Position numbers and translations under genes: made by a program
The notes under the pieces: generated by a model
What the model was told of the DNA's origin: nothing
Seen by the model: only the letters and a program-made list of their open reading frames with translations
Databases searched by the model: none
In this document: positions 2,648 through 31,046 of the stretch, in pieces
Layout: the number at the start of each line of letters is the position of its first letter
Numbering within the stretch: position 1 is the stretch's first letter
Virus record (IMG/VR): IMGVR_UViG_3300028785_000030
Location: 1 to 33,486 of that record
Strand: one strand, 5' to 3'
Source of the DNA: a virus
DNA: 33,486 nt

Positions 2648-2651
2648 GCAG

Positions 2652-5851: not shown

Positions 5852-5858
5852 AGTTTGT

Positions 5859-6545
5859 ATGGGCTTGCCTGGCGGCGATCTCATCTGGCTGGCGATCTCC
5901 CCATCCTCTTCCAAGGGTAAGCATGGGTCGAGGTCGCCAGCCGTTCTATTTTCCCTTGCAATCCAACTGCAAGCGTCGTACAGTAAATTCATGTCCACGG
6001 TAGCCGTCTCGATCATCTCCGTCTTCGCCAGTTTCATCCTGCTCATCATCGTCTTGGGGCTTGCCGCGCTGATTATTCTCCATCTCCGGGCGCAGAAGGC
6101 GAACAAGGAACTCGCCGCCTTTCTGACGCAATACAAGACGGACTTGACCGTCCTTGTCGATGGCGCGCGGTCGAGCTTCACCGGCATCCGGCAGGAGATC
6201 AAGACCTCGCAGGAGAGGCAGGATAAGCTCTTGGCGGCTGCGCTCAAGGCGCACGATGCTGGATTCCGCGATGCCATCGGCAAATTCAACCCTACAGCGC
6301 TGGAGGCGGCTTCGATCAAGATTTTCAATGCGTCCGCAACGCTGGTGAGGGTTGCCAGCACACTTCAGGCTCTCTTGGTGACGCACGAGGTTCCCGAAGG
6401 CGCGGCGGACTTGCTCCCCGAAGAGTACGCGGCTGGCGATACGATATACTCCAGCATTAGCGAGTCAGCGCGGCTCGATCAGGCTGACCAGAGGGCGCAA
6501 TCGGAAGATGATGCGCCATTGTTCTCTGGGGTGGCGGCGGAATGA
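5859..6545 (+). CDS. Membrane-anchored coiled-coil protein ahead of the terminase genes
   Basis: From ATG 5859 the product is 228 residues; an alternative ATG at 5991 (184 residues) would place the membrane segment at the very N-terminus, but neither has a Shine-Dalgarno sequence and only 5859 has a promoter placed for a leaderless start. Residues 46-76 (STVAVSIISVFASFILL... IILHL) are one clear transmembrane helix. It is followed by about 100 residues of charged, probably coiled-coil helix (QKANKELAAFLTQYKTDL...) and an acidic tail. One anchor plus a long soluble helix suits a spanin-like, holin-associated or membrane-scaffold role, but nothing proves it. It heads the packaging/head operon and overlaps the next gene (ATGA). 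Confidence 0.55.
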   Translation: MGLPGGDLIWLAISPSSSKGKHGSRSPAVLFSLAIQLQASYSKFMSTVAVSIISVFASFILLIIVLGLAALIILHLRAQKANKELAAFLTQYKTDLTVLVDGARSSFTGIRQEIKTSQERQDKLLAAALKAHDAGFRDAIGKFNPTALEAASIKIFNASATLVRVASTLQALLVTHEVPEGAADLLPEEYAAGDTIYSSISESARLDQADQRAQSEDDAPLFSGVAAE

Positions 6546-6892: not shown

Positions 6893-6895
6893 GCA

Positions 6896-9741: not shown

Positions 9742-9757
9742 AGACGAGGAGAACACT

Positions 9758-10264
9758 ATGTCAGACCGAGCAATGATGTACTGCCCAACCTGCCGAAATT
9801 TGGCGAACATCACCAGCAACGCTTCCCTTAAGGTCGTCGAACTGGTGCGCGACCCGGACGCCTTCCGCTGCGCAAACGGACACGTCTTCAAAGCCTACGC
9901 GGAACTCATGGCGATGGAGCCGGAACTAATCAAACTCATCCCGAAGGAGACTCCCGGACCGAACGATACGAAGGTAGAGGTCTGGGTCAACAAGGACATC
10001 TGGACTCAGTTCGCGGCCAAGTATCCGGCACAGGTCAACGCCACGGTCGAGTCGATTCTGCGGCTCTATCTGGTCGGCGAGCCAGTCATCATCGACGGCG
10101 GACAGGCGGCGCATCTGCGGAAACTCGGGGTCAAGAACGGCTCGGAGATGGTCGCTGCGCTCGAAGTTGCGAAGACCCTCGAAGCGCAGTTGCAGACGGC
10201 GGAAGAGAAGATTTCTCTCATGCAGTCCCTCTTCCAAGGGGCAGGCGTTCAGGCTCCGGTATGA
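9758..10264 (+). CDS. Zinc-ribbon protein between terminase and portal
   Basis: ATG 9758 follows AAGACGAGGAG at good spacing. The 168-residue product starts with a zinc-ribbon-like pair, YCPTCRNLA (about residues 8-16) and RCANGHVF (about 44-51). A middle region, VWVNKDIWTQFAAKYPAQV, is followed by an HTH-like helical part (ATVESILRLYLVGEPVIIDGG) and a C-terminal coiled coil (VAKTLEAQLQTAEEKISLMQ). It may be a DNA- or terminase-associated accessory factor, judged from position only. Its stop overlaps the start of a 22-residue peptide (ATGA at 10261). Confidence 0.65.
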   Translation: MSDRAMMYCPTCRNLANITSNASLKVVELVRDPDAFRCANGHVFKAYAELMAMEPELIKLIPKETPGPNDTKVEVWVNKDIWTQFAAKYPAQVNATVESILRLYLVGEPVIIDGGQAAHLRKLGVKNGSEMVAALEVAKTLEAQLQTAEEKISLMQSLFQGAGVQAPV

Positions 10265-10329
10265 AAAACATAATGCTCCCCTTTATCGCCATCGTGTTTG
10301 GATTTGCGTTGTATTTCTGCCTTCACTAG
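10261..10329 (+). CDS. 22-residue hydrophobic microprotein
   Basis: It starts by an ATGA overlap with the stop of the preceding gene and ends at TAG 10327-10329. The product (MKNIMLPFIAIVFGFALYFC plus two residues) is one short membrane helix with a positively charged N-terminus. Translational coupling supports expression. Short single-helix phage peptides can be small holin-like or membrane-perturbing factors; with no further evidence this is only a possibility. Confidence 0.45.
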   Translation: MKNIMLPFIAIVFGFALYFCLH

Positions 10330-10388
10330 AAATTCTCTCGCGCTAACTCCCCACTCCGCAGCCATTTCGCGGTAGGATGAAATCGACT

Positions 10389-12188
10389 ATGGCCGCTGCG
10401 GAACTACTCAACGAAACGCCGGAACAACGCCTCGAACATGAGGTGCTGGAATGGACTGAATCAGTCTACGACGAGGCGGAGCGCGAGCTTTCGGACTCGA
10501 AGGAACTCAAACTTACCGGCAAACTGATCGACTACATAGAGGGGCGCCAGTGGAGTCCGCAGGCTCGGTTTGGTCGCTCTCGCCCGGTCGAGAACCGCTT
10601 CGTTCGCCAGTTCATCGAGATGGTGGGGCAGTTGACCGACATCCTGCCGGACTTCAAAGTCACGTTCCACGACCACCCCGAAGGATTCTCGGAACTCGAA
10701 AGCCTACTGAACCAGTACATCAGCCTTTGGGCAGAGAACACCGACTTCGAGGGAGACCTCAGCCAGACCGTAATCTACGGGCTGTTGCACACCGGCTACG
10801 GGAAAGTCCAGTGGAACCCCGCGCTCGCCAACGGCTACGGCGACAACGAGTACATTCCAATCTCACCGGTCAACCTGATGGAAGTAGGCACCGACAACAA
10901 GCTCAAAGAGGCGGAGTGCGTCATCTACCGCGTCCCTGTAACCCTTCAGTACCTCAAGCGGAGGTATGGTAGTATTGCGGATTTCATCAAGCCCGATTCT
11001 AATATGCAGAACCAGCCGGCACAGATGATGCGTCCGGCGAAAATGTCGGCATCGCAGTGGTCTAAGCTCCCGAAGTCCCTCCAGAACATGCTCGGCCAGA
11101 AGAAAGACGGCATGATCGGCACGAAGTACCCCATCGCGTTGATGAAGGAGTTCTGGTTCAAGGACGATTCACAGAACGAGTCGAGCACGAGTTTCCGCGT
11201 CGGGCCGGAGAATGCGAACTGGAGCTACATCGTCGAGCCTGGAATGCCGATCTATCCGCGTGGCCGTCTCGTCGTATCGGCGGGAAGAAAGATTCTTGCG
11301 GACAGTTGCAATCCCTACTGGCACGGAAATCATCCGTTTGCGAAGTATCGACCATACCGGATGCCGTGGAGTTCCAAAGGATTGTCGGCACTTGAACCGA
11401 TGGCAGCAATTCAGAACATCCTGAACCGCATCAACGGCGGCGTGATGGATACCGTCAATGCCGCGATCGAGCCGACGCTTATTGCACCGAAGGCCGCGTT
11501 CTCTGACCAGTCGTGGGATTCGATGGACCCCGGCGCGCCCGGTGGAAAGCTGCGGTACAACAACAACACGCCGAAGATTCCTGAGTTTCGCAAGCCGCCT
11601 GAGCTTGCTTCGTACGTTCTCGCCGTCAAACAGGGACTCGAAAAAGAGCAGGACATGTCCTCCGGCTCTGCGGCGATGAACCAGTCATTGCAGAAGAAGC
11701 AGGTCCCGAGCGGCGATTCGCTCGACATGATTCTCAACAGCAAGTCCGTCAACATTCGCTTGATGGGGAAGAATCTCAAGAGCTATCTCACGGAAGTTGG
11801 CGCGATGACCGCAGCGAACATTATGCAGTTCTCGCCGGTAAAGCGCAGAGCGCAACTATTCGGCGGAACAGGGATTCTGGATTCGGATTTCACAAAGTCG
11901 TATGGCGAGATGAAACCGGCGGGAATGGAGCCGGAAGAGTTCGTGCGTTCGATGAGCTTCAGTATTCGCAAACTCAACATGGCCGCAGAGCGAAGCGAGG
12001 ATTTGACGATCGCTTTCGGACTTAGAAAAAATAAGGACATCAGCCGGACGCGACTGTTGTTGAAGCTCGATCCGAATTTCGACATCAAGCAGAACGAGCA
12101 GGAATTGCTTGCGGAAGCCATGCAGGCAGCGGGCGTTCAAGGACTCATCGGCGCGGCGGGCGGCGGACATCATGGCGGTAAGAAATAG
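10389..12188 (+). CDS. Portal protein
   Basis: Forms the dodecameric ring at the vertex through which DNA enters and leaves. About 600 residues, the usual size for P22-type and related portals, and immediately downstream of the terminase module. Typical portal text is present: YDEAERELSDSKELKLTGKL, IEGRQWSP, RPVENRFVRQFIEMVGQLTD near the N-terminus, then NPFAKYRPYRMPWSSKGLSA and the crown/stem region IQNILNRINGGVMDTVN, and a Gln/Lys/Ser-rich segment (MNQSLQKKQVPSGDSLDMIL). I place the start at ATG 10389, with AGGA upstream; ATG at 10377 is in frame but has no usable ribosome binding site. The last residues are Gly/His-rich (GGGHHGGKK). Confidence 0.9.
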   Translation: MAAAELLNETPEQRLEHEVLEWTESVYDEAERELSDSKELKLTGKLIDYIEGRQWSPQARFGRSRPVENRFVRQFIEMVGQLTDILPDFKVTFHDHPEGFSELESLLNQYISLWAENTDFEGDLSQTVIYGLLHTGYGKVQWNPALANGYGDNEYIPISPVNLMEVGTDNKLKEAECVIYRVPVTLQYLKRRYGSIADFIKPDSNMQNQPAQMMRPAKMSASQWSKLPKSLQNMLGQKKDGMIGTKYPIALMKEFWFKDDSQNESSTSFRVGPENANWSYIVEPGMPIYPRGRLVVSAGRKILADSCNPYWHGNHPFAKYRPYRMPWSSKGLSALEPMAAIQNILNRINGGVMDTVNAAIEPTLIAPKAAFSDQSWDSMDPGAPGGKLRYNNNTPKIPEFRKPPELASYVLAVKQGLEKEQDMSSGSAAMNQSLQKKQVPSGDSLDMILNSKSVNIRLMGKNLKSYLTEVGAMTAANIMQFSPVKRRAQLFGGTGILDSDFTKSYGEMKPAGMEPEEFVRSMSFSIRKLNMAAERSEDLTIAFGLRKNKDISRTRLLLKLDPNFDIKQNEQELLAEAMQAAGVQGLIGAAGGGHHGGKK

Positions 12189-12335
12189 CCGTTGATGCTT
12201 GCAGTGTGCGCCAATCCAGCGTTTTCAAGCCTAAAAAATAATTTCAAAATAATCGCTTCTCAGCGTGTGTGAGGCATTGCGTTTTGTTTTCCGTTGTAGC
12301 AACGTAAGAGGCGAGGCAGAAACAATCCGCCTGAA

Positions 12336-12353
12336 AGTCAGTGCAGGCTGACT
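12336..12353 (+). other. Stem-loop in the 5' region of the microprotein gene
   Basis: AGTCAG-6-CTGACT forms a perfect 6-bp stem in the 208-bp gap between the portal stop and the 22-residue basic gene. That gap also has an unusually A+T-rich tract (about 12227-12252) that could hold a promoter, but I see no good -35/-10 pair. Confidence 0.35.
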
Positions 12354-12396
12354 CAAATCAAACCGTGATTCGATGGGGAAACCCAAAGGAGAAACA

Positions 12397-12465
12397 ATGG
12401 CACGCAAGATCGTAAAGCGCAGCAAGAAGGAACGTAAGGCGAAGCGTCACAGCAAGCGCGGCTAA
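12397..12465 (+). CDS. 22-residue polybasic microprotein
   Basis: ATG 12397 follows AAAGGAG at ideal spacing, and the frame ends TAA 12463-12465. The product has 12 Lys/Arg and one His in 22 residues (begins MARKIVKRSKKERKAKRHSK), one of the most basic peptides possible. It sits between the portal and scaffold-like genes, where phages often encode proteins packaged with or acting on DNA. DNA binding or condensation, or electrostatic binding to the acidic scaffold or terminase tails, are plausible; none is shown. A strong hairpin with a GTAA loop follows (12491-12514). Confidence 0.6.
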   Translation: MARKIVKRSKKERKAKRHSKRG

Positions 12466-12490
12466 GTTCGCGCTGCTCCTCAACCAATCC

Positions 12491-12514
12491 GGGGGCCGGA
12501 GTAATCCGGCTCCC
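12491..12514 (+). terminator. 10-bp GNRA-loop hairpin after the microprotein gene
   Basis: GGGGGCCGGA and TCCGGCTCCC pair over 10 bp (one G-T wobble) around GTAA, a GNRA tetraloop. No T-run follows, so it is more likely an mRNA-stabilising or processing structure, or a partial attenuator that lowers head-gene expression, than a full terminator. Confidence 0.5.
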
Positions 12515-12538
12515 ACAACACGAGAGAGGCAAATTCTC

Positions 12539-12724
12539 ATGGCAACGAAATCCAAGCCTGGCCAGAGCTACACCGAAGAGTCCTTCGGCCATCGCATTCC
12601 GCAGGTCGCATTGTCGAAGGGTGGCATTGAAATCTTCGGCGACACCGTTCACGACGGCAAGCTCGGCGGCAAGCCCACGAGCGTAAACACCAAGACCGGC
12701 TACCCCGGCAACCAGAAGGCATAA
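12539..12724 (+). CDS. Small structural-region protein, unknown
   Basis: The ATG follows GAGAGG. The 61-residue product is Gly/Lys-rich (IEIFGDTVHDGKLGGKPTSV) without membrane segment or known motif. It lies between portal and scaffold-like genes and ends in TAATG with the next start. It could be a minor head or decoration protein, judged from position only. Confidence 0.55.
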   Translation: MATKSKPGQSYTEESFGHRIPQVALSKGGIEIFGDTVHDGKLGGKPTSVNTKTGYPGNQKA

Positions 12725-13080
12725 TGCCAGAGCCAGCCGCAGCCCCTCCGAATCCGTACTCGAACATGGCGTCTATGCCCGGCCCCATGCCTCCGCCCAA
12801 GAAAGACGCGGACGTTGAGGAGTTGATGAAAGGCTTCCATGGGATTTTCAAAGCCCTGAAGAAGATGGAAGCCATGAATCCAGCCCTGGCCGAGAAACTC
12901 ACCGTGGCGAAGAAGGCTATGAAGGATGCAGTCGCCAACGTTCTGAAGGGCGATCCTTCGACGCTGGACGACGACAAAGACGCAACACCTCCACCTGTAC
13001 CACCCCCTGCTGACGCATCATCGAACACCGCGACACCACCCCCTGACGTGGCGACGACGGGATCAAACACCGCAGATTAA
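12724..13080 (+). CDS. Pro-rich head-region protein with helical core, possible scaffold component
   Basis: Coupled to the previous gene by TAATG. The 118-residue product has a Pro/Met-rich start (about residues 1-25) and a central amphipathic helical region (VEELMKGFHGIFKALKKMEA..., VAKKAMKDAVANVLKG, about 30-75). The tail is Pro/Thr/Asp-rich. Low complexity around a helix, placed before a second scaffold-like gene and the capsid gene, suits an assembly cofactor. No family is recognised. Confidence 0.5.
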   Translation: MPEPAAAPPNPYSNMASMPGPMPPPKKDADVEELMKGFHGIFKALKKMEAMNPALAEKLTVAKKAMKDAVANVLKGDPSTLDDDKDATPPPVPPPADASSNTATPPPDVATTGSNTAD

Positions 13081-13101
13081 CCAAGACGAGGAGAGTGAAT
13101 T

Positions 13102-13824
13102 ATGGCAGACCTATTGACCGATCTCGAAGGGTTCCTGGGCAAAGAAGCAGCCGACAAGCTGCGCGCCACCCCCGATGCTGTGACGCGCCTTAGCCGCGCC
13201 AGCGAGATTATGAGCTTCTACGACGGCGACACCGAGACCCCTCCCACTGCGCCGCGTGTGCGCGAGGCGCCTCCCACTGTTCGTTCGGCCACTGGAGCCG
13301 GAGATGAGACCTTGGCGCAGATCATGGCGCGGCTTGACGGACTTGGAAACATCGACGAGAAGATCAAGGAAGGCGTCAACAAAATTGTCGAAGCCCGTGG
13401 CGCGGAACTCCGCAGCGGAGCAGTCGCCGACTCCATCAGGATCGTCCGAGACCTTACCCGTCTCGATGCGCGTAACCGCGCAGACTTCGGCGAGGACATG
13501 GATGACGCGAAGCTCCAGGCGCACATTGACTCCGCCACTGCTATCGGTCGCCCCTTCCGTACCGTCACCGACGCCTACGAAGACATGACGCGGCAGGCGC
13601 GGATCGACAAGCAGGTTGCCGCAGGAATTGAGTCCGGCGTCCGCGAGAAGCTCAAGGATCGCGCATCCGGTGCTGTCCCAGGAGTTACGCCGACAGCGGC
13701 AAGCCCGATGCTGACCATGCTGCACAAGAGGCCGAACGGGTCAACCGATTCAGGAACACATTTGGACAAGGCTGCGCGCGCTCTTGAGGAACGTCTCGAA
13801 TCGCGCGGAGAGCACGTAGCATAA
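13102..13824 (+). CDS. Probable capsid scaffolding protein
   Basis: ATG 13102 follows AAGACGAGGAG. It is 240 residues, directly upstream of the major capsid gene. The composition is charged and helical throughout, with a Pro/Thr/Arg linker (about 48-65), a predicted coiled coil (ETLAQIMARLDGLGNIDEKI), and a basic helical C-terminus (LDKAARALEERLESRG). Position, length and helix-rich charged sequence are those of internal scaffolding proteins, which fill the prohead and leave or are cleaved before packaging. No protease domain is seen here, so it would exit by another route or by an unseen protease. Confidence 0.6.
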   Translation: MADLLTDLEGFLGKEAADKLRATPDAVTRLSRASEIMSFYDGDTETPPTAPRVREAPPTVRSATGAGDETLAQIMARLDGLGNIDEKIKEGVNKIVEARGAELRSGAVADSIRIVRDLTRLDARNRADFGEDMDDAKLQAHIDSATAIGRPFRTVTDAYEDMTRQARIDKQVAAGIESGVREKLKDRASGAVPGVTPTAASPMLTMLHKRPNGSTDSGTHLDKAARALEERLESRGEHVA

Positions 13825-13848
13825 CGATTTTTAACGGAGGCAATTCCA

Positions 13849-14817
13849 GTGGCTCTTACATACAACGACATCAGCGCGATCACCACGAATCACATCATCC
13901 CGGAGATCGTGGACGAATACTACAAAGTCTCCCCGGTATTCACTCTGATCTTCAAGAGTGAGGGCCAGAAGTCGTTCCCTGGCGGTCTCCAGATCCAGCA
14001 GCCGATCCAGTACGCGCCGCTGAAGGCCGGCGCCTTTGCGCCGGGCGGCACATTCGACATCAGCTACGTCCAGACGGACACGGCTATGATGTTCAACGTG
14101 AAGTTCTACTACGCCAACGTCACCATTCGCGCCACCGACCTCGCGCTGAACCGCGGTGCCGACGCCAAGATGTCCTACGTCGAAGAGAAGATGGTTAACG
14201 GTTCGCAGGCGCTCGTGCAGGCTTTGGCTACCGACTTCTTCGCCGACGGTCAGGGCGTAGTGTCTTCGCAGATCGCGCTCGACGGAATCCTCGCCGGGTA
14301 CGACGACGGAACCAACTACCCGTCGTACGGCAACATCGCGCGCGCGGCCATCGGTTCCGGCGCGAACACCGGCATCAACGGCTACTACCAGAACGTAGCC
14401 GGCCCGCTGTCGCTGACCGGGCTCCAGAAGGCGTATGGACAGGCCACCTTCGGCAATCACCAGCCGAATCTGCTTGCGACCACGCAGAGCATCTACAATC
14501 AGATTTTCAACAAACTGACCCCGATGCAGCGCGTCGCCGATGCCACCCCGGATCTGGTTAGCTACGGCTACGAGGCCATCCGGTACAACAACCGGCGTCT
14601 CGTGGTTGACCAGTATTGCCCGGCAGGATACCTGTTCGGCATGAATACGGGCTTCCTCAACGCATGGGTCTCCGACCACGAACTCTTCGGCTTCGGCTGG
14701 ACCGGGTTCAAGGAACTGCCGAACTCGCTCGACGCGGCTTCGCAGTGCATCTTCGGCGGCAACATCGTTGTGAGCGCACCTCGCTTGGGCTTTGTGTTGG
14801 CCGGAATAACTGGCTGA
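13849..14817 (+). CDS. Major capsid protein
   Basis: GTG 13849 with GGAGG eight bases upstream. 322 residues, right after the scaffold-like gene, the standard position. The N-terminal LTYNDISAITTNHIIPEIVD and the following FKSEGQKSFPGGLQIQQPIQ fit the pattern of HK97-fold capsid proteins of many podo- and siphoviruses: an N-arm followed by a Gly-rich substrate-like loop. FNVKFYYANVTIRATDLALN and the Ala-rich helix NGSQALVQALATDFFADGQG fit the spine and A-domain. It is expected to be the most abundant virion protein; the strong Shine-Dalgarno agrees. Confidence 0.8.
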   Translation: MALTYNDISAITTNHIIPEIVDEYYKVSPVFTLIFKSEGQKSFPGGLQIQQPIQYAPLKAGAFAPGGTFDISYVQTDTAMMFNVKFYYANVTIRATDLALNRGADAKMSYVEEKMVNGSQALVQALATDFFADGQGVVSSQIALDGILAGYDDGTNYPSYGNIARAAIGSGANTGINGYYQNVAGPLSLTGLQKAYGQATFGNHQPNLLATTQSIYNQIFNKLTPMQRVADATPDLVSYGYEAIRYNNRRLVVDQYCPAGYLFGMNTGFLNAWVSDHELFGFGWTGFKELPNSLDAASQCIFGGNIVVSAPRLGFVLAGITG

Positions 14818-14870
14818 TCGTAGTCGGCTGCTTGGCAAGGTTTTGATTTTCGTACCACAGGAGAAGCATC

Positions 14871-15500
14871 ATGGCTTTCGGAATCGACTACCCGGACTTT
14901 GGCGCAACCAATCCGCTCACCGCTGGAACCACCGTTTACACGGCGGTTGACACGTACAACACGGCACTGGAGAACAACGGCGCGAACCAGCCGCTTGGCA
15001 GCATCTACCAGGCTCCGCTGAGTCTCGGAGTAGTTGGGGCCGCGACCAAGGGGATCGGCCAGAACAACTACTTCAAGTACGTTCGCTATAACCCGACCGT
15101 CAGCCAGAACTTCCTGACCGGGCCGCAGCTTGTGTACTGGAAGGACAACACCTTCACGACCGTCACCGGACTGGCGTCCGAAGCCCTGAGCATCAACCTG
15201 ATTGCCGGCTGGCTGCTGTTCAACACGACCACGACCCCACTGGCGAGCGGGCAGACTGCGGCGCAGCAGGCCGCTCTGGTCAATGGCAACTTCGTCTGGA
15301 TTCAGGTGGGCGGATACTTGCCTGGAGCGTATGTCACGACCGGAACCGCAGCTGGCGGAGTAATCATCGGTGCATCCAGCACCTTTGGAGCCAACGCGTA
15401 CATTGCCCCCGGATCGAACATCACGAACGAGGTCGCCGGTATCTTGGTTGCGGCAGCGTCATCGAACCTGGCCGATCTGTACGTCCCGCTCATCGTCTGA
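14871..15500 (+). CDS. Putative capsid decoration / head protein
   Basis: ATG after AGGAG (CACAGGAGAAGCATC). The 209-residue product is rich in Gly, Ala, Thr and Asn, with beta-type repeats (PLTAGTTVYTAVDTYN; LLFNTTTTPLASGQ; GTAAGGVIIGASSTF) and no charged clusters or membrane helix. Gene order (right after the capsid gene) and composition suggest a virion surface or decoration protein. No named family is identified. It is probably made at a high level, from the same transcript as the capsid protein. Confidence 0.55.
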   Translation: MAFGIDYPDFGATNPLTAGTTVYTAVDTYNTALENNGANQPLGSIYQAPLSLGVVGAATKGIGQNNYFKYVRYNPTVSQNFLTGPQLVYWKDNTFTTVTGLASEALSINLIAGWLLFNTTTTPLASGQTAAQQAALVNGNFVWIQVGGYLPGAYVTTGTAAGGVIIGASSTFGANAYIAPGSNITNEVAGILVAAASSNLADLYVPLIV

Positions 15501-15548
15501 TCGTGGAGAACGACCGGCTGCGCTGAACCTGTTTGAGGAGAACTCGCA

Positions 15549-15914
15549 ATGGCATTGACAATCACGAAAATCCCGGACATCCGGTACTTCCTCGGAGAGT
15601 CGGGTATTATGAACGGATTCACGTTCAAGCCGTCCGTGTCCGACTACGTTACGGGCGGATATCCAATCACTGCGGCTCAAGTCGAACTCAGCTACCTCGT
15701 GGGCGCGATGCTCCTCGGAACCAACTCTGCGGGCGCAACCTACCTCGCGCAGTTCGTCGAGCCAACGGCTCTCTTTGGGACGACTCCTGCGGTTGGAACG
15801 CAGTTGAACCTGAAGGTGGTGGACTCGACCAGCGGCGGTGGAGCATTCACAGAGGTTGCCGCCTCGACCGATCTGAGCGGATGCTCCTGGGCAGCCCTCG
15901 TACTCGGGTGGTGA
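15549..15914 (+). CDS. Small virion-associated protein, unknown
   Basis: ATG preceded by GAGGAG. The 121-residue beta-rich product has an amphipathic start (ALTITKIPDIRYFLGESGIM) and a C-terminal half that looks like a small beta-sandwich (QLNLKVVDSTSGGGAFTEVA). Like its neighbour it is poor in charged residues, as expected for head decoration or head-tail joining proteins. A hairpin terminator follows at 15934-15964. Confidence 0.5.
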   Translation: MALTITKIPDIRYFLGESGIMNGFTFKPSVSDYVTGGYPITAAQVELSYLVGAMLLGTNSAGATYLAQFVEPTALFGTTPAVGTQLNLKVVDSTSGGGAFTEVAASTDLSGCSWAALVLGW

Positions 15915-15933
15915 CGGCTCGTAGTTCTAAGAA

Positions 15934-15964
15934 GGGAGGGGGCAGTCGCCCTCTCCCTCTTGTT
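15934..15964 (+). terminator. Intrinsic-terminator-like hairpin after the capsid/decoration genes
   Basis: GGGAGGGGGC pairs with GCCCTCTCCC over 10 bp (one G-T wobble) around an AGTC loop and is followed by TCTTGTT. The T-tail is interrupted, so termination is probably partial, which would lower expression of downstream neck genes relative to capsid. Confidence 0.6.
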
Positions 15965-15978
15965 ATCTGAGAGGGTGA

Positions 15979-16995
15979 ATGCCGATTGTTCCGAGTCCGG
16001 GCGTTGTGATACCACAGCAAGTTCTTCCTGATGGGTCGAACCCCGCGGTCAATCAGATGAATACTGGGCAGGCGATCGGACAAGTTCAGTTCTGGAATCC
16101 CGATCTCTCCCAACCTAAAATACTCGGTCTTCTCAACAACTCACTCCGTCGAACGGTAGACCGTAAAACCTGGGCGAGCCTCTTCGTCAAAGGGCAAGTG
16201 ATCGCACCACAAGCCACCACAAAGGGGCAGGCGACGACTACCCTTGGGTCGCCTATCGTAGTCGGCACGGGCACCGTCTGGACGCAGGCTCTCGTTGGTC
16301 AACAGTTCAGAATTGGCTACAATTGCCCCATCTACTCGATTGTGGCCGTGGATGACACAGCAACGCCGCAGACGTTGACACTCGAATTGCCTTGGGGCAG
16401 CCCTTCGGTTACATCGGGGTATTTCATTGTTCAGTATTATTTCAACTTCGGGCCTAACGTCAAATACTTGAAGACCATGATTAACACCCAACTTGGTTAC
16501 AAGTTTGATCTGCACTGGACGCAAGACGGACTCAACACCCTGGACGCCTGGAGATCCAACCAGAACTTCCCCTATATATCCGCAGGGATGCCTCTTGCGC
16601 AGGACGGTTCGTATCTCCAAGAGCTTTATCCCGCTTCGTGGATTCAGCAAGCGTTTCCGTTCCAAGCATATATCCAACCATTCAACTTGGTAAACGACTC
16701 TGATCCCTTCCCTCCGTATTTTCGCGCAGATGTAATTATTAAAGACGTAATTGCAGACGCGCTAGTCATCGGAGGCCCCAAGAATAATAGGTACTACGAT
16801 CCAGCCGAGTCGAGGATTAAGCGCCAAGATTACGAGGGAGAAATCCTTCGCATGGCCAACGCCGACGAAAATCTCTATCGTACTGAAGTCACAAAGATGG
16901 GAGAGGATATGCCATACTACCAGAGTGGAGGCGCACTGTTCAATGCGACCCATCTTTGCGCGGCTGGAGGAAGTGGAGGAGGATACGAGTTATGA
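15979..16995 (+). CDS. Probable neck / head-tail completion protein
   Basis: ATG after GAGAGGGTGA. The 338-residue product contains a segment (about residues 85-150) with GTGTVWTQALVGQQFRIG, YSIVAVDDTATPQTLTLELP and FIVQYYFNFGP. This G-T-x-W-T...VG-x2-F...I-x2-V-D-x-AT-x-LTL arrangement recurs in neck and tail-completion proteins of short-tailed and other phages. The N-terminal part is Pro/Gln/Asn-rich and may be a flexible arm; the C-terminal part is charged. The placement between head and tail genes supports a connector role. It overlaps the next gene (ATGA). Confidence 0.55.
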   Translation: MPIVPSPGVVIPQQVLPDGSNPAVNQMNTGQAIGQVQFWNPDLSQPKILGLLNNSLRRTVDRKTWASLFVKGQVIAPQATTKGQATTTLGSPIVVGTGTVWTQALVGQQFRIGYNCPIYSIVAVDDTATPQTLTLELPWGSPSVTSGYFIVQYYFNFGPNVKYLKTMINTQLGYKFDLHWTQDGLNTLDAWRSNQNFPYISAGMPLAQDGSYLQELYPASWIQQAFPFQAYIQPFNLVNDSDPFPPYFRADVIIKDVIADALVIGGPKNNRYYDPAESRIKRQDYEGEILRMANADENLYRTEVTKMGEDMPYYQSGGALFNATHLCAAGGSGGGYEL

Positions 16996-17336
16996 GTCAA
17001 GCCTGTGGTAGTTGTGGAGTCCCGGTTTTTCGTACACGCTTCAGCGCGGGGAAGTGGCTGGGCGTGGACTGCGGCTGCTCGCGGGATACTGTTATCGCTG
17101 ACCCCGACAACCCGTTCCACAACGATGGGTCGCTCACCTTGGAGCATATCTACGACGAGCGCGGCGAGAAAGTTCGCGTGACCAGTAGGCGGCAACTGGA
17201 AGAGGCAGAGAGCCGGTTCCACTTCAACCACATCCCGACGAACATGGATCGGGCGAACTGGGACAGGCCGAAGCAGCAGCAGGCATACACGGTGGGAGAT
17301 CGCTACCAGAGAAAATTTTCGGGGGTACAGCAATGA
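16992..17336 (+). CDS. Cys-rich small protein in the neck region
   Basis: ATG 16992 by ATGA overlap. The 114-residue product has QACGSCGVPVF near residue 3 and VDCGCSRDT near 27, a compact Cys2-Cys2 zinc-binding pattern, followed by a charged segment (DERGEKVRVTSRRQLEEAES). It may be a zinc-stabilised assembly factor or minor virion protein; no family is recognised. It is coupled to the gene at 17333. Confidence 0.55.
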   Translation: MSQACGSCGVPVFRTRFSAGKWLGVDCGCSRDTVIADPDNPFHNDGSLTLEHIYDERGEKVRVTSRRQLEEAESRFHFNHIPTNMDRANWDRPKQQQAYTVGDRYQRKFSGVQQ

Positions 17337-17683
17337 GCACTGACGGTTTAGGAACCTTTCGGCAGGTGGAGCGCGGCGACCACAAAATCAGCGTCAACTC
17401 GAAGTCGATGAATCAGGGCAGGTTCATTGACCAGTCGCGCTTGGCGAAGCGGTACACGGAGGAGTACGTTCCTTCGATCGTCCCCGGCAAGTATGGGCAG
17501 TATGTCCCGAAGGTGGAGATCGCTTCGCCGGAGGATAACGCGCGCCTGTCCTGCGACGCGATGAAGCACAAGTCGAGCTTTGTTGACGAGAGTGTTCCGG
17601 CGAACGAGAACAGGGGTAATTGCTGTGTGCCGTCGTACTATGGTGGCGATGGGCCACTGACGCGGCGAAGAGGGGATGACTGA
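17333..17683 (+). CDS. Hypothetical protein before the receptor-binding block
   Basis: ATG by overlap (ATGA) with the previous stop. The 116-residue product has no membrane segment. It contains RFIDQSRLAKRYTEEYVPSI, a single CC pair (NRGNCCVPSYYGG) and a basic C-terminus (LTRRRGDD). No domain is recognised. It is the last gene of GC-rich composition before the more A+T-rich block starting at 17693. Confidence 0.5.
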   Translation: MSTDGLGTFRQVERGDHKISVNSKSMNQGRFIDQSRLAKRYTEEYVPSIVPGKYGQYVPKVEIASPEDNARLSCDAMKHKSSFVDESVPANENRGNCCVPSYYGGDGPLTRRRGDD

Positions 17684-17692
17684 GAGGAAGCC

Positions 17693-19708
17693 ATGAAAAA
17701 AGTTTGCTTACTGCTTTCAATTCTCGCGTTGACGCTGACGGTTGGGGCGCAGAAGCCTGTGCCAATGGCCGCTTACTTATCTCTGTCGGCTGGCACATGG
17801 AACCCGTGGACTTCTTCTGGAGGTTTTGGATCTCTTTCTTTTACTCCACCCGCGATAGGACTATACTGCCAAGCGACATCAGGAGGACCGTGGCAGCCAT
17901 GCAATCCGGGAAGTGGCAGTGGTGGCAACGCGACCTCGCTTCAGGGCAATCCCGTCTCTGCGACCGCGCCGACACCGGGGCAGGTATACGTTGAGAACCC
18001 CAGCAAGGTACTAACTCCGGAAACTATTACGGGGACGTTCAACTGGCCGTACCAACCACTAGCAGACTATGACACGCGCAACGTGGTTGGTACGACATTG
18101 ATAGACAGTAGCGGAAATGGATATGACGGTACGCTCGGCGGTGGCAGTGCAACACTTCCTACGGTAACTCCGCAGGGATTGAGTTTCAATACCAACCTAA
18201 CTACCGGAGTCTATGACAACACACGAGGAGACGGAGTGTTATTGCCGTCTGCAGTCAATGCAGCACAGTCGTTTGCGTTTAGTTTTTATGACAACATTCC
18301 TCCGACTATTTCTGGAGGAATAGCATTCCCAGCCTTCGGGACATTTCTGACGAGTTCGAATGTTGGGAGTGGATTTAATATCCTAAATTGGTTGCACCCT
18401 GTTGGAGGTGGGTCTGCCTCTGGGTCGTTTGGCATAGGAATCTATGCCAATAATGCTAATGGGACGCAAGGCGTTAATTCAACTAGCGGATTTCACACAG
18501 CGATTGTAACTATTGGATCGGGTGTTGGAACCGGGCTGACCCATATTTACATTGACGGCCAAGAAACAGGATACACAAACCAGACAACGGATGGAGGTTA
18601 TGCACCAGCGGGAGGTAATTTTTATCTAGGCTCAGTAAATTCGGGGGTTTTTGCAAACAACAGCCTGTTTGGGATGTTGCCGAGAGCTACCTTGTTTTCT
18701 CAGCAGCTTACGCCTAGCCAAGCTCAGGCGGTTGATAGCATACTTCGGTCCGACGCCCTTGCGCGAGGTATACAGATTTCCCCAATTAACATTCGTCAGG
18801 CAGTCCCAACGATTAATTGTGTTGGTGATTCGATAACCTATGGTCTTGGCGTAACCACTCCCTACTGCACATCCTTTTCGCTGGACGCCGGACAGCCAGT
18901 ATACACTACTCGAATACTTGGCGTAGTCGGAATAACACTTTGGCAGATAGCTGCGATGGAGCCAGATCGCATGGCTACTTACTGCAAAGGGGATTACGGT
19001 CCAGTTTGGTTGATATTGGATGCCGCCACTAACGATCTATACTATGGATCTTACGGGACCATTGCCAACATCCAATCCAACATGGCGGGGGTTATATCTA
19101 AGTATACGAATGCCGGATGCAAAGTTTTAGTCGCAGACATGATTTCGCGAACTGGGAATAGTAATGCAACAGGGAACCCTACGATGGATAGCCTTAAAAA
19201 TAGTTGGGATGCTATCGTAGCGGATAACTGGAAAGCATGGGGGGCTGCGGGGGAAGTTGTATTTTCATCTAACCCGTTGTTAGGTGCCGATGGCGCATAT
19301 TCTGGCTCAGATTTTCTGTCTGACGGCACGCATCCCAATCAGACCGGTCAGAATGCAATGAATGCTGAGGCTGTTGCAGAGATGAATTACTTGGGTGGCC
19401 AGAACGCAGGAAATCCGAACCTAATAACTGCAACAACTGCAACGCTGCTCAATAGCCAAGTATTCAATTTGGTCACTCCTGCCACCAACACGGCGATCAC
19501 CATGCCGACATGCTATGGGCTACAGGGTGGAGCGACTTATACAATCAACGTCACCAACAGCAACGCTGTAACAGTAGTCGAAGGTGTGAGCGGGCAAACG
19601 ATTAACGGATCGGCCAGTGCTGTGACTCTTCCGACTGGGCCGCACGTCACAAATCTTATCGTCACACAGCTATCAAAGACCACGGCAGGGTGCATCTGGA
19701 GCTTCTAA
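17693..19708 (+). CDS. Secreted LamG-SGNH esterase, putative tailspike or receptor-modifying protein
   Basis: The ATG follows GAGAGGAAGCC. The 671-residue product begins with a textbook Sec signal peptide (KK, then CLLLSILALTLTVGA, cut before Gln20). Residues about 125-360 look like a LamG/concanavalin-type lectin domain (LIDSSGNGYDGTLGGG). From 378 comes an SGNH/GDSL hydrolase: GDSIT with S380, the block III residue N447 (DAATNDLY), and the catalytic pair D544/H547 in DGTHPNQ. A C-terminal beta domain (about 575-671) ends in CIWSF. SGNH enzymes deacetylate or de-esterify surface polysaccharides, so this probably trims host capsule or O-antigen. The signal peptide is odd for a virion protein. 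DNA is visibly more A+T-rich than in the head genes, suggesting acquisition. Confidence 0.75.
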   Translation: MKKVCLLLSILALTLTVGAQKPVPMAAYLSLSAGTWNPWTSSGGFGSLSFTPPAIGLYCQATSGGPWQPCNPGSGSGGNATSLQGNPVSATAPTPGQVYVENPSKVLTPETITGTFNWPYQPLADYDTRNVVGTTLIDSSGNGYDGTLGGGSATLPTVTPQGLSFNTNLTTGVYDNTRGDGVLLPSAVNAAQSFAFSFYDNIPPTISGGIAFPAFGTFLTSSNVGSGFNILNWLHPVGGGSASGSFGIGIYANNANGTQGVNSTSGFHTAIVTIGSGVGTGLTHIYIDGQETGYTNQTTDGGYAPAGGNFYLGSVNSGVFANNSLFGMLPRATLFSQQLTPSQAQAVDSILRSDALARGIQISPINIRQAVPTINCVGDSITYGLGVTTPYCTSFSLDAGQPVYTTRILGVVGITLWQIAAMEPDRMATYCKGDYGPVWLILDAATNDLYYGSYGTIANIQSNMAGVISKYTNAGCKVLVADMISRTGNSNATGNPTMDSLKNSWDAIVADNWKAWGAAGEVVFSSNPLLGADGAYSGSDFLSDGTHPNQTGQNAMNAEAVAEMNYLGGQNAGNPNLITATTATLLNSQVFNLVTPATNTAITMPTCYGLQGGATYTINVTNSNAVTVVEGVSGQTINGSASAVTLPTGPHVTNLIVTQLSKTTAGCIWSF

Positions 19709-19773
19709 TCTCACGCATACACGGAGAATTAGCGGCATGACAGCGCGTAGGGTTCACTAGGATAGGAGAAAGC

Positions 19774-20692
19774 ATGAAGAGACTCATCGGACCACTGCTG
19801 CTTCTGCTTGCTGCACAGACTTTTGCGCAACAACAGATTAACCCGGCCACGCAGATCAAGTGGCCCGCCATCACTGGTGCTGGGCTTCCTACTTCAATCC
19901 CAGTGGCCTGCACAACAGCCAACTATGGGCAACCGTACTTGAATACGGCATCGACTCCGAACACATCTTACGTCTGCAGCGTCAGCGGGTGGATTCTGGG
20001 GGTCCCCACCGATTTGGTAAAGACCGACCCAATGGCAACGCAGACGATAACGCAGCCGGTGAATACTAGCCTGAATGTGATTACGAGTGGTACGGGATCG
20101 TTGAAGAGTAATGGTTCTCCGGTGCTGACTACTGTTAACGGTTCAATCAATCTTTGTTTATTCTCAGGTTGAATACTATTCGGGAGCAGCTCCAGCGGGG
20201 CTGTATCCCGCAACACAGAATGTCTTTCACATGGTGACGAACGATTGGAGAACATCTTCCATTGTGCCGGATCAGGTTACTACCTTTTTCCCGTCCACCA
20301 CCGGTATAACCGGTGAATTGGAAAGCATTTACTTTGTCTCCTCAGCAGCGGGAGCTATTTATGGGGCTACCAACTGGCTTGAATTAGCTCCTGTAATTGC
20401 ATTCGACGGGAATACCTTTACCTATCGTGGGTGTGAGGATTTCTTTGGCACTCAATTCTACGGGCAGAACGGACTAACGCGTGGCGATGAGTGTGGGCAG
20501 GCAATTGCTTTTCAGGGCCAGAATCTTGGCACATCCGACGCAGTAACTTATTGGACCGGGTACCGATATTTCAAGGAAGCACCGCTGCGCTTCAATTCCA
20601 GCCTTTTGATTAACTGGCAGAATGTTGACACTGCCTACGGCAATCCGGCAACCCAGGTCGGTTCGTGTGTCGTGTACTACACGGAGAGTTAG
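19774..20692 (+). pseudogene. Signal-peptide surface protein split by a +1 frameshift
   Basis: ATG 19774 follows AGGAGAAAGC. Frame 1 (19774-20172, 132 residues) starts with a Sec signal (KR, LIGPLLLLLAAQTFA before Gln19), then INPATQIKWPAITG and NTSYVCSVSGWILG. It reaches a TGA at 20170. Frame 2 is open from 20129 to 20692 and continues the same protein (YYSGAAPAGLYPATQ, VTNDWRTSS, ending CVVYYTES). Both frames are open over about 20129-20169, so a +1 shift there would yield one protein of about 305 residues. It may be a broken gene, a programmed frameshift or a sequence error; no classic slippery codon is evident. It is probably a receptor-binding or adhesion accessory. Confidence 0.55.
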
Positions 20693-20767
20693 TTATTGAA
20701 AGTGTTGAGGTGCGTTTGGAGTTTCTAACACTGACCGGAACATTTCGACCAAAGATTGCGAGCTAAT

Positions 20768-21424
20768 ATGAAGAGAATTTTAGGGTTTTTTCTTATGATG
20801 TCCGGCGTGATGCAGGGACAGATTCCCGCGCCTCAGATCAATCTAAGCGGCAACATTGGGTGCCAAGGGTTCCCCTGTATCAACAGTGTCACATTAATCA
20901 TGACTACGGACGCAAATCGCACCATGACAGCACTTGAGACGAGTGCGATGTACATCAAGGTAACCAGCTCTGTTGCCTTGACTGATACACGAAACCTGAT
21001 TGCGCCGGCTGGAAGATTCAACTTCACCATCGAGAATGCTACTACGGGTGGGCAAGCAATCCAGATCATCGGCGTAAGCGGAACTGGTATCACTATTCCC
21101 AACGGCAATACTGCAAGCGTATGGAACGATGGGACAAATTTAGTTGGTACTAACACGCTCACGTCGGTCACGGGCACAGCCCCGGTGGATTGCACGACGA
21201 GCGGATCGAGCGTGAATTGCTCGATGGCCCAGGCAACCTCATCGGTGGATGGCTATCTATCGCAAATTGACTGGACGACGTTCAATAATAAGCAGCCCGC
21301 TGGTACCTACCTCACGCCATCTAGTACTGTATTCAATAGTGTAAACTACCCATCTAGTTACTCACAGTATGCACTGCTTACTGCGCCTACAACTGCGTCT
21401 GTGGGGAGCCTATTACCTAGCTAA
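20768..21424 (+). CDS. Third signal-peptide surface/fibre-like protein
   Basis: I place the start at ATG 20768, because the product then begins MKRILGFFLMMSGVMQGQ, a short Sec signal cut before Gln; TTG 20756 is the alternative. There is no strong ribosome binding site. The 218-residue product is Thr/Ser/Asn-rich and beta-structured, with LIMTTDANRTMTALETSAMY, FNFTIENATTGGQAIQIIGV and a C-terminal repeat-like SSTVFNSVNYPSSYSQY. The middle resembles the C-terminal beta domain of the 17693 protein. It may form a fibre or surface adhesin with its neighbours. It ends in TAATG, overlapping a 25-residue frame. Confidence 0.55.
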   Translation: MKRILGFFLMMSGVMQGQIPAPQINLSGNIGCQGFPCINSVTLIMTTDANRTMTALETSAMYIKVTSSVALTDTRNLIAPAGRFNFTIENATTGGQAIQIIGVSGTGITIPNGNTASVWNDGTNLVGTNTLTSVTGTAPVDCTTSGSSVNCSMAQATSSVDGYLSQIDWTTFNNKQPAGTYLTPSSTVFNSVNYPSSYSQYALLTAPTTASVGSLLPS

Positions 21425-28400: not shown

Positions 28401-29589
28401 GGTGAACTGGCGCGGGACGTTGTTCGTGGCGACGACGCAAACGTGGTGGCTGATTGTCGGTGGCGCACAGCCGTACCCGCAGCCCACAGGGTCGATTCAT
28501 GGCGCGGTTGCTTCTGAGGGCTGGACGCAGGATGAAGGCGGAGTGGGCTTCAGGAGTGCGGACGGCTGGCGCCGCTTCGGTGGAGCCGACGGTGCGTATG
28601 TTACCCTGCCGGTCGAGTTCCTCTTCAAGCAGACGCCATTGACTCCGGTGCCGTTGACTGACCCCACGCAGATTGCGAATGACGTGTTCGCATACTTCAA
28701 TAATGTTACGTTTGGCAGCTACGTCAGCCTCGACAGCGGCAAGCGATACAGGCTGGCATTCGATCATAACTACAGCCGATTCCGCTATGACGATGTTGCC
28801 GCGACTGCGATGCTGTGGGAGCGCGACACGAATATGCTACTTGCCGGAGTCCCGGCTCCAGCGGCCTTCCCGAACAAGTACGCCATCGTGCAGGACCAGG
28901 TGCCAAATCAGGACTACGACGACGGCGGATGGCAGAGCGGCGCTTTAGTCCAAACTCCCATCGAACTCATCAATCAGATTCCGTACCAAGATCTCGGCGC
29001 GCCGCACTTCCCGAAGCAGTGGAACACGGTCGAAGTGGACGCGAACACCTACGGGCAAACGCTCACTGTTGTCCTCAACTTCGACGACGGAATTGCGCCT
29101 CTGACCCTGGGGACGATCAACACGAGCGAGCGGCAGAAGATTCAATTGAAGGTCAATGGCGGAGACGGGCAGGAATCGTACAAGTGCAGCCCTGCTTTGA
29201 CTGGAGATGTGACGGTAGCGCCGTTCATCTACCAATTGAATATCTACGCGGACGTGCTGGCGGCGAACAGGACATCATTGGATTCCTACTTCCAGAAATT
29301 CGGAATCGACGCGAGCAAAATCTGCAAGAACGTCTATCTCGACTACACCTCGACGACGACGGTTTCTCTCGCCTTCTACACCGACGGGAGTTCGACGCCG
29401 TACTACACATTCACACTTCCGGTGAATCCAGATCGCGCGATTATCCGCGTTCGGCTCCCGGCATTGAAATTCAGGACGTGGCGGATGATCGCTCTCAGCA
29501 CTGCGCCGATGCAGAATTGGTCGGCTCCGAAATGCGAGTGGCGTCCTGTCCAGAACAATTCGTGGCAAATTGCGGAGGTCGCAACCTAA
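25462..29589 (+). CDS. Very large tail hub / stabilisation-type protein
   Basis: Starts TAATG-coupled; 1375 residues. It is beta-rich throughout with repeated Ig- and propeller-like segments: YSLDNGVSWTPFYTYSQ, the inserted LLVTTQTAHGLAANSLCSVY, and VRLRYVGDIQGN. The C-terminal 400 residues resemble podovirus tail-hub or stabilisation proteins (P22 gp10-like): ALAYDQVWLAGDKNNPHYLY, FSKKNQPENFGPEDYIPVG, VNWRGTLFVATTQTWWLIVG. With no tape measure anywhere in the window, it is the best candidate for the main tail body. Its length exceeds P22 gp10 about threefold, so it may combine hub and additional adhesion domains. It ends in TAATG with the next gene. Confidence 0.65.
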   Translation: MAQETKAYAPIEFLFKSHGLLARYASDRNPEYAYFDFRNCLERSEESLSTRLGTMILNRDPVGASDLNYFFDSPVTSLAKLTYAGSPSRYAGLSDGSLWRRNSNAQGAYTQIYTGLSGNPFQTVVASCYETSQAYLFIYDGDYSIKDSGTGNPQLTGIDPPAQTANTQPYSPLLTLIDNFNPANTYTSENFSIAWASTAVTTLNAATSQQITDFPEFLGITNNSGGTPSGPFSASTGPFFTTETASLIRGGGDSGGGVSHFVSPSFYGFPSTVLGLLDVVTLSVVTVSYNGSVNLGTWSSLSGTMQYEYSLDNGVSWTPFYTYSQTLSGWSSSVSSEIPVTVTAAISGLTNLNTVRLRYVGDIQGNASNTFSPVYITGQINAITATIDNNAASDPFDGVQDGMLAVLGTTDPTPVTIASVASATLIGGVYTQLLVTTQTAHGLAANSLCSVYGTNNDLVDGFYVVQSAPNATTYLVNFYSVVYLSATGGFSYGGQPAPSTCVVANHQGTPYPSQFSGWGFYEQVPLAQISFPVWAWSGSVAQNTTINAPAKVGHTVNLDLSINNQVTDDDLIVLTLLVSDPAAIDNIRLQFDVRGSDYSSSYYYKDISPAYYQQGVSGVQDAYASTEQQILADSVGLLSGATPGSITAQLQPGTFSTGESSWQTVYLRRGDFVAVGTAGKPGLDWSAITGWQLVITTNTVGSSTVACNGLYLQWGYGPSSFGGVGYDYRYIYYDANTGTPSNPAPEQQFNLLYGWLSSLSAPIYLRQASQTTGLYSSDPQVTHVRIYRRGGTYNDNWRQIDQIPNITGGGVFYYKDVIADAVIAQAQTLVLDNDPPVTSSLRTPIQTTLLNTPSSPGTGVYSTFAPQTMQVAQTAAVFVPNQIVDVGNANNLEQVSVTTGGTGQFTATLRLQHNAGEPVNVYAVPRQSCNLCALAYDQVWLAGDKNNPHYLYFSKKNQPENFGPEDYIPVGSPDFPIVIVVNWRGTLFVATTQTWWLIVGGAQPYPQPTGSIHGAVASEGWTQDEGGVGFRSADGWRRFGGADGAYVTLPVEFLFKQTPLTPVPLTDPTQIANDVFAYFNNVTFGSYVSLDSGKRYRLAFDHNYSRFRYDDVAATAMLWERDTNMLLAGVPAPAAFPNKYAIVQDQVPNQDYDDGGWQSGALVQTPIELINQIPYQDLGAPHFPKQWNTVEVDANTYGQTLTVVLNFDDGIAPLTLGTINTSERQKIQLKVNGGDGQESYKCSPALTGDVTVAPFIYQLNIYADVLAANRTSLDSYFQKFGIDASKICKNVYLDYTSTTTVSLAFYTDGSSTPYYTFTLPVNPDRAIIRVRLPALKFRTWRMIALSTAPMQNWSAPKCEWRPVQNNSWQIAEVAT

Positions 29590-29843
29590 TGTCTGAATGT
29601 TGCAGCGAGAAATGTGCGCATCTTGCAAAGCGCGACAAGCGCAAGGTCGTCTGGCTGGTCGATGGACAACCCTACTGTAACGTGTGCTTTTTGAACTGGA
29701 TCGAAGAATCCGGCATGAAGGATGAGCGGATAGTCCGTATGTATGACGACGAAAACCTCTACGCCGACATCCGAACACAGAAGCGCAGACGGCGGACACG
29801 CGAGCCGAATCCCTACGGTGCACCGATGCAAATGAGGGCTTGA
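29589..29843 (+). CDS. Small zinc-finger protein after the tail hub
   Basis: ATG overlaps the previous TAA (TAATG). The 84-residue product has ECCSEKCAHLAK (residues 3-14) and PYCNVCFLNW (about 27-36), a double Cys pair that should bind zinc, separated by a basic beta strand (KRKVVWLVDG). The C-terminus is basic (RTQKRRRRTREPNP). Fold and charge suggest nucleic-acid or anionic-surface binding. Function is unknown. Confidence 0.55.
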   Translation: MSECCSEKCAHLAKRDKRKVVWLVDGQPYCNVCFLNWIEESGMKDERIVRMYDDENLYADIRTQKRRRRTREPNPYGAPMQMRA

Positions 29844-29852: not shown

Positions 29853-29881
29853 TTGACCTGCAAGCATGAACCGAGTAGAGT
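29853..29881 (+). promoter_or_regulatory. Promoter with leaderless start for the Tat-signal gene
   Basis: TTGACC (29853-29858, 5 of 6), a 17-bp spacer, and TAGAGT (29876-29881, 4 of 6). ATG 29888 follows six bases later, with no Shine-Dalgarno sequence. The arrangement is nearly identical to the promoter at 776-804. It starts a new transcription unit after the tail genes. Confidence 0.65.
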
Positions 29882-29887: not shown

Positions 29888-30295
29888 ATGCTGAATCGCC
29901 GCAAATTCTTCTCCGTTCTCCCACTCTCCACGCTCGGCTTGGTTGTGCCAGAGGCAAAAGCCGATGAACCTCGCTTGACTAATCCCCTTACGGGATACCC
30001 GATGACGATAGGGGAGTGGCGCGACAGGGCGATGGTGTACCGCGATGCGGTCGAGCGTTTGATTACGGAGAAGGAAAGTATATGGGTGGAGATGACGTGT
30101 CAGCACGAAGCCCACTACAAATGGAAGCAGGGCATCAATGGCGAATGGATACAGGGCGCAATGACACATCCGGCGTGCGGACAAAAGTTCAAAGTCCTTC
30201 GCCTTCCGATCGCGCCGATCTGCCCGAAGTGCGGTTACAGTCAAGATATAAGCCGCCCCGGAATCCGCGAACAATTTCAAGGACAACCCTGCTAA
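29888..30295 (+). CDS. Tat-exported Cys-rich protein
   Basis: The 135-residue product begins MLNRRKFFSVLPLSTLGLVV, a twin-arginine signal (RRKFF, a hydrophobic core, then EAKA as cleavage box). Tat substrates are folded before export and often carry metal; here the mature part has TCQHEAH, HPACG and PICPKCG, a probable zinc or other metal site. The ATG at 29888 is fixed by a promoter placed for a leaderless mRNA. Membership in a phage late region is odd; it may modify the infected cell envelope or exclude other phages. No enzyme family is recognised. Confidence 0.6.
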   Translation: MLNRRKFFSVLPLSTLGLVVPEAKADEPRLTNPLTGYPMTIGEWRDRAMVYRDAVERLITEKESIWVEMTCQHEAHYKWKQGINGEWIQGAMTHPACGQKFKVLRLPIAPICPKCGYSQDISRPGIREQFQGQPC

Positions 30296-30336
30296 CGTAA
30301 TCCCGCGAACCACCAACCTGAAAGACGAGGACACAA

Positions 30337-30612
30337 ATGGATATCACTCTGAAGTTGGAAGCGCAAAACTGGTCTGAACGGACACCCACCAAAACTCAAC
30401 TCGAAAACCACATGGGCGACCTGTCGAGCTACCTCAACAAGCTGGCCGGAGCACTGCTGGCGACCGGTGAGTTCACCATCGCAGATCAGCCGATTGCAAC
30501 CGTGCTGAATGCGGCTGGCGCGCTGAAGGCCGCGAAGGAGCAGTTCGCTGGCGCAACCACTACGGGGATTGTTCCTCCTAACCCGCGTCCGCAGATGGTT
30601 CCGAGAGGGTAG
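30337..30612 (+). CDS. Small helical protein, unknown
   Basis: ATG after AAGACGAGG. The 91-residue product has an N-terminal beta strand (ITLKLEAQNW), then an amphipathic helix (TQLENHMGDLSSYLNKLAGA), a second helix (NAAGALKAAKEQFAG) and a Pro-rich tail (VPPNPRPQMVPRG). No membrane segment is present. It directly precedes a membrane-protein gene and may be expressed with it. Confidence 0.55.
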   Translation: MDITLKLEAQNWSERTPTKTQLENHMGDLSSYLNKLAGALLATGEFTIADQPIATVLNAAGALKAAKEQFAGATTTGIVPPNPRPQMVPRG

Positions 30613-30614
30613 CC

Positions 30615-31046
30615 ATGCCGACCATCCTCATCCCGATTCTGCTGCTCCCCCTCGTGCTGTGGGGATTCTTTCGCATCTCTTTGGCAAACACCACTTTCGA
30701 GTTCGACTTCGACACGGCACATGCCACGTTCAGCTTAATGATCGGCCACTTCGTCAGCATCGCGCGCTTGCTGATGGCGGTCGGATTCGGGATGGCTCTG
30801 GCGAGTAAATACACTCACGCGTCTTCGGATGTCGTGATCTGCTGCCTCGCCGGAGCCGTCTACGGACTCCTCTTCAATGTGCGGATATTGGTTTTCTACG
30901 AGGGATACCTGCACGTTCGCTATCCGCGCAACGGGATGCCGGGGCAGTCGAACTACACTGTGTCGAGGTACGCGACAATATTGGCTCTCGGATGGAGCGC
31001 AGTGTTCCTGACGTTGGTTGGCGTGATTGCGGCGGTGGTGCGGTGA
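30615..31046 (+). CDS. Multi-pass membrane protein (possible holin or envelope protein)
   Basis: ATG after GAGGG. The 143-residue product has four likely membrane helices: ILIPILLLPLVLWGFF (about residues 4-19), MIGHFVSIARLLMAVGFGMA (about 41-60), VVICCLAGAVYGLLFN (about 72-87) and ILALGWSAVFLTLVGVIAAV (about 121-141). A short basic loop (EGYLHVRYPRNGMPG) lies between helices 3 and 4. Size and helix count allow a class I or atypical holin, but no endolysin neighbour confirms it. The stop overlaps the next start (GTGA). Confidence 0.55.
   Translation: MPTILIPILLLPLVLWGFFRISLANTTFEFDFDTAHATFSLMIGHFVSIARLLMAVGFGMALASKYTHASSDVVICCLAGAVYGLLFNVRILVFYEGYLHVRYPRNGMPGQSNYTVSRYATILALGWSAVFLTLVGVIAAVVR

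Follow-up and report, generated by a model that had tools for sequence, protein, structure and literature searches.

A predicted Tat-exported zinc-ribbon protein encoded at a variable accessory site of a probable acidobacterial phage

The IMG/VR record IMGVR_UViG_3300028785_000030, from a soil virus, was analysed over its whole length of 33,486 bases (hereafter the window), and harbors at positions 29888-30295 a gene whose product combines a twin-arginine signal with a zinc-ribbon motif. With a probability of roughly 55%, we regard it as an accessory gene of an Acidobacteriota phage, whose product would be a Tat-exported zinc ribbon with the infected cell's envelope as its target. According to the mechanism proposed, the gene would have been inserted, in the manner of a moron, behind a conserved promoter of the late region and ahead of the gene that this promoter normally serves. 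The host Tat system would recognise the NRRKFF signal and bring the zinc ribbon, folded, metal-loaded and some 110 residues long, through the inner membrane, signal peptidase would cleave after AKA, and the resulting periplasmic protein would act on the envelope. The gene with its signal and zinc-ribbon motif, its insertion site and the promoter-like sequence are observed directly (Table 1); transcription, export, metal binding and envelope action are what we infer from them.

The window is part of a tailed phage genome, probably of podovirus-like morphology. PHROG matches identify a large terminase, a portal and a major capsid protein, followed by a long run of late genes on the same strand; the late-region location given in an earlier note on this DNA is thus confirmed, portal and capsid genes lying upstream of the gene in the same orientation. 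The capsid protein is a distant match (28% identity) to those of Tunturi_1 and Tunturi_2, two podovirus-like isolates infecting Tunturiibacter, of the Acidobacteriota (PMC11924767), and the terminase, portal and one long late protein of these phages match the window more weakly than the capsid does. Because of this capsid resemblance, and at phylum level only, the host is probably an acidobacterium. A search by terminase alignment matched no acidobacterial genome contig carrying a prophage, so that the host call rests on the similarity to the Tunturi capsids. Several late genes of the window (17693-19708, 19774-20172 and 20768-21424) start with Sec-type signal peptides, for example MKKVCLLLSILALTLTVGAQ, as do genes at 10371, 13940, 15949, 19025 and 19474 of Tunturi_1 (L096); some of the latter carry annotations as tail spikes or as structural proteins of the virion. 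Another genome, G004 (L081, L082), is 99.96% identical to window positions 1616-20709, its remaining 13.2 kb having no nucleotide match, and the break at 20709 may stem from a tail region that was recently exchanged or from a join made in sequence assembly.

The open reading frame at 29888-30295 is a real gene. Among the six frames it has the highest coding score (0.09 bits per codon, the others ranging from -0.12 to -0.60), although this score is weaker than that of the downstream neighbours. All the motifs reported for it in the earlier note (RRKFF, a hydrophobic core, AKA, CQH, HPACG and CPKCG) are present exactly there. The protein opens MLNRRKFFSVLPLSTLGLVVPEAKADEPR..., and its signal reads MLNRRKFFSVLPLSTLGLVVPEAKA up to the predicted cleavage point, with D as the next residue; NRRKFF is followed by the uncharged core SVLPLSTLGLVVP and then by AKA, placing RR and an uncharged hydrophobic stretch near the N-terminus, as in Tat signals (NRRKFFSVLPLSTLGLVVP). 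Strict Tat-like reading frames, defined by a length of at least 80 aa, RRx[FL] within the first 14 residues, an uncharged hydrophobic 11-mer and AxA, are limited to a single case over the two strands of the window, where 60 order-2 Markov shuffles gave 0.07 on average. A chance reading frame was rejected on the strength of this value and of the best coding score among six frames. The Pfam TAT_signal model gave no match to the protein at E <= 1.

In the mature part, CQH (C71/H73), HPACG (C97) and CPKCG (C112/C115) make up the Cys-rich portion already singled out in the earlier note, which is now recognised as a C-terminal zinc ribbon with four Cys: residues 74-115 match Pfam DUF3039 (PF11238) with 25.0 bits, over the curated cut-off of 22.7 (E 1.6e-5), a model that found no match at E <= 1 in any of 28 related records. 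Only weak matches, to the N-terminal region of CopA (E 0.007), were returned by a PDB sequence search, and these are probably driven by the CPxCG pattern. Searches of IMG/VR with the protein, an alignment and a DNA pattern, and of phage records, found no close homologue, and selection on the twin arginines is for this reason not measurable. That the protein might be a capsid fragment was rejected, the capsid profile giving no match. As DUF3039 is a zinc-ribbon domain of unknown function, and as signal-free zinc-ribbon relatives exist in other phages (L094, L095), the protein could also be conceived as a cytoplasmic zinc ribbon, perhaps binding nucleic acids or proteins, with a Tat-like start that arose by chance or persists as a relic. 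This is unlikely, since such an N-terminus is expected by chance about 0.07 times per window, and several protein families of the phage group, unrelated to one another, begin in the same way.

Table 1. Features of the accessory locus and of a second leaderless promoter in the window
Feature	Position	Strand	Details
Second leaderless promoter (predicted)	5956..5991	+	TTGCAA-17-TACAGT-6-ATG, before membrane protein at 5991
Upstream conserved neighbour	29589..29843	+	84 aa, Cys-rich (CCSEKC, YCNVC); homologues L103, L107, L108, L111
Sigma-70-type promoter (predicted)	29853..29881	+	TTGACC (29853-29858), 17 nt, TAGAGT (29876-29881)
Tat-signal zinc-ribbon protein	29888..30295	+	135 aa, ATG, putative leaderless start
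Twin-arginine signal, residues 1-25	29888..29962	+	predicted cleavage between AKA and D, read by eye
Zinc-ribbon part	30098..30235	+	C71-x-H73 ... H94-P-A-C97-G ... C112-P-K-C115-G
Shine-Dalgarno AGACGAGG of 30337 gene	30323..30330	+	leader common to L105-L109; CGACGAGGAG in L111
Downstream conserved neighbour	30337..30612	+	91 aa; homologues L105-L109 and L111, 37-39% identity
Conserved multi-pass membrane protein	30615..31046	+	143 aa; homologues in nine related loci

Most relatives lack the gene, and its two flanking genes, of 84 and 91 aa, adjoin in L105, L107, L109 and L111, with 60-80 bases between them; for L105 and L109, the counterpart of the 84-aa gene was assigned by gene order, not by search. 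The same intergenic site of L108 is occupied by an HNH/AP2-type endonuclease-like gene (4464-5225, - strand; read by eye). The site is a variable accessory locus and the gene an accessory insertion within it, in agreement with the accessory status assumed in the earlier note. By comparison of leaders, the Shine-Dalgarno sequence of the 30337 gene is kept from an arrangement without the insertion. As in a moron, an extra gene thus separates genes that are adjacent in relatives (L105, L107, L109, L111); a promoter of its own, also expected of a moron, is lacking insofar as gene-less relatives show a promoter-like sequence at the site, and no terminator-like site, which would be a further mark of a moron, was found between 30296 and 30336, ahead of the next gene.

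The ATG of the gene lies 6 nt past the -10 hexamer and has no Shine-Dalgarno sequence (TTGACC-17-TAGAGT-6-ATG), an arrangement that indicates a putative leaderless start. The + strand of the window has three such -35/-10/start arrangements and the - strand none, where shuffles give 0.07 for each strand; leaderless genes account for 9.7-19.4% of genes in Acidobacteria (PMC3160421). The leaderless arrangement is frequent among these phages: nine relatives have it in front of their homologue of the 5991 membrane protein, the first hexamer being TTGCAA or TTGCAT, and these sites, together with that of the window, mostly read TTGCAAGC...TANANT-6/7-ATG. The earlier note had taken the promoter of the zinc-ribbon gene to be both leaderless and private: the promoter and the leaderless start hold, the privacy does not. 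Promoter-like sequence is found at the same intergenic site in L105, L106, L107, L109 and L111; in relatives without the gene it includes TGCAAGC repeats and is followed by AGACGAGG of the next gene, and the window promoter contains TGCAAGCAT, a motif repeated at this site in relatives. Since the promoter segments of relatives align poorly outside the core, their correspondence rests on position and motifs. Given the promoter-like sequences of relatives at this position, import of the promoter with the gene was rejected, and the gene probably took over an existing promoter instead of importing its own; inserted behind this conserved promoter, it would be the first, leaderless gene of the transcription unit. 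A possible regulator site is TGCAAGC[AG]T, copies of which are found repeatedly between genes.

The strongest support for the Tat reading, as judged by sequence comparison, is the presence of other Tat-signal proteins in related phages. The N-terminal design of the 29888-30295 protein is found in L078, L080, L026, L093, L108, L121 and in ORF97 of Tunturi_1, and the signal claimed in the earlier note is strengthened by the twin arginines kept in these comparable proteins. A Tat zinc-ribbon family (a) is encoded between the genes for the small and the large terminase in at least six phages (L078, L080, L026, L087, L091 and L093; example start MDESRRKFFNIGAVAIAAAAIP...), with strong Shine-Dalgarno starts, and no homologue of it was found in bacterial genomes. 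Homologues lacking the twin arginines were named in the earlier note as evidence that would count against export: this point is borne out only in part, as all family (a) sequences at 61-87% mutual identity keep the twin arginines, and no signal of any kind precedes the more distant zinc ribbons of L094 and L095, which are related to family (a) and encoded directly upstream of the portal gene. The two members of a family (b), in L108 (9651) and L121, are 50% identical with RR in both. Tat-type starts are also borne by a group (c), comprising proteins of 66-70 aa in L029 (21353) and L032 (21530), of 157 aa in L109 (9246, - strand) and of 103 aa in Tunturi_1 (ORF97; L098 9906), and by L122 (d), which starts MNRRGFLRSIAGLAGAKALAPLAAVAALEP. 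Pfam TAT_signal independently matched several of these relatives, with per-genome E values of 3.9e-5 to 8e-3; none of the matches reaches the curated cut-off of the model. Two further peculiarities were observed: in L093 (2521-2860), the Tat zinc-ribbon gene has an in-frame TGA within the otherwise conserved RFRWYFGV stretch, which may denote a broken copy or recoding, and the terminase-like protein of L094 (1295-4249) contains an apparent intein (read by eye).

The mature parts of group (c) proteins resemble three different stretches of the phages' major capsid protein. Against the capsid profile, ORF97 reaches 16.3 bits (shuffle maximum 8.2), L032 11.4 (1.1), L029 11.0 (5.0) and L109 8.7 (0.2), in each case a weak score over a short stretch. 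Such capsid-like Tat proteins, together with the terminase-flanked position of family (a), the L087 N-terminus without a good AxA site and the signal-free relatives next to the portal gene, would fit an uncleaved Tat-type membrane anchor tethering the zinc ribbon at the inner membrane for a role in assembly or genome packaging. For the window protein this is unlikely: it has a good site between AKA and D, its gene is far from the packaging genes, and the expected place of a Tat substrate is the periplasmic side, opposite to that of the capsid. The kinship of the window protein with the packaging-module family is moreover unproven; the family (a) profile scores it at 15.3 bits, and common descent is no more than plausible, since 6 of 500 shuffles preserving Cys, His, Gly and Pro score as high. 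Most likely, the protein is exported by the host Tat system, or inserted by it in the membrane.

What might such a protein do in the infected cell? Tat exports folded, often metal-loaded proteins. Tat genes are present in Acidobacteria (PMC3827258). The likeliest outcomes of the putative envelope action would be the block of a second phage, or the tuning of adsorption or lysis; superinfection exclusion, the function proposed in the earlier note, is only one option among several, and no named superinfection-exclusion family was found among the matches of the protein. A more specific proposal, an exported regulator of lysis timing acting as T4 antiholin RI does, that is in the periplasm after signal cleavage, would suit the late region and the nearby conserved multi-pass membrane protein, and periplasmic lysis regulators encoded by phages do exist, T4 RI being an example (PMC8385771). 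It is nevertheless improbable: the window proteins that were scanned include no recognisable holin or endolysin, and most relatives manage without the gene.

More interesting than the single gene is the wider set of Tat-signal proteins of acidobacterial phages, a pattern that spans uncultivated and cultivated ones. A tentative view, which we advance with less confidence than the accessory Tat-exported zinc ribbon itself, is that Acidobacteriota phages possess a changing repertoire of short Tat-exported proteins, the present one included, and that several of these would display components of the phage itself in pieces (capsid fragments, packaging-module zinc ribbons) beyond the host membrane, forming an undescribed layer of phage-host or phage-phage interaction. 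If true, phages exploit the pathway by which a major soil phylum exports its folded proteins. Phage-encoded Tat substrates are apparently hardly described, none having been found by title or abstract in the literature searched, and the carriage of several small Tat-tagged proteins, as in the relatives of the present phage, seems to be a phage habit not described before. Direct testing is possible in the cultivated Tunturi_1, which carries the Tat-type gene ORF97.

Among known proteins, the small zinc-ribbon proteins of DUF3039 (PF11238) share the HPACG...CPKCG of the 29888-30295 protein, which differs in adding a Tat signal and a 45-residue linker and in being phage-borne. Family (a) resembles it in an RRKFF or RRRFF start, CxH or CxG...CG...F[RK] and, where complete, PPxCPKCG; in contrast, identity is about 25%, the linker is shorter, and both the genome position and the Shine-Dalgarno start are different. 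Phage morons and exported superinfection-exclusion proteins include P22 SieA, T4 Imm and Sp, and HK97 gp15, which are membrane or Sec-type proteins. The likeness lies in an accessory gene located between conserved genes and a product directed, here putatively, at the envelope, whereas the Tat export, zinc ribbon and borrowed promoter proposed here are absent from them. T4 antiholin RI is, like the protein as proposed here, a small phage protein with a cleavable signal and a periplasmic action, but it has a Sec-type signal, another fold and a known partner, the holin T.
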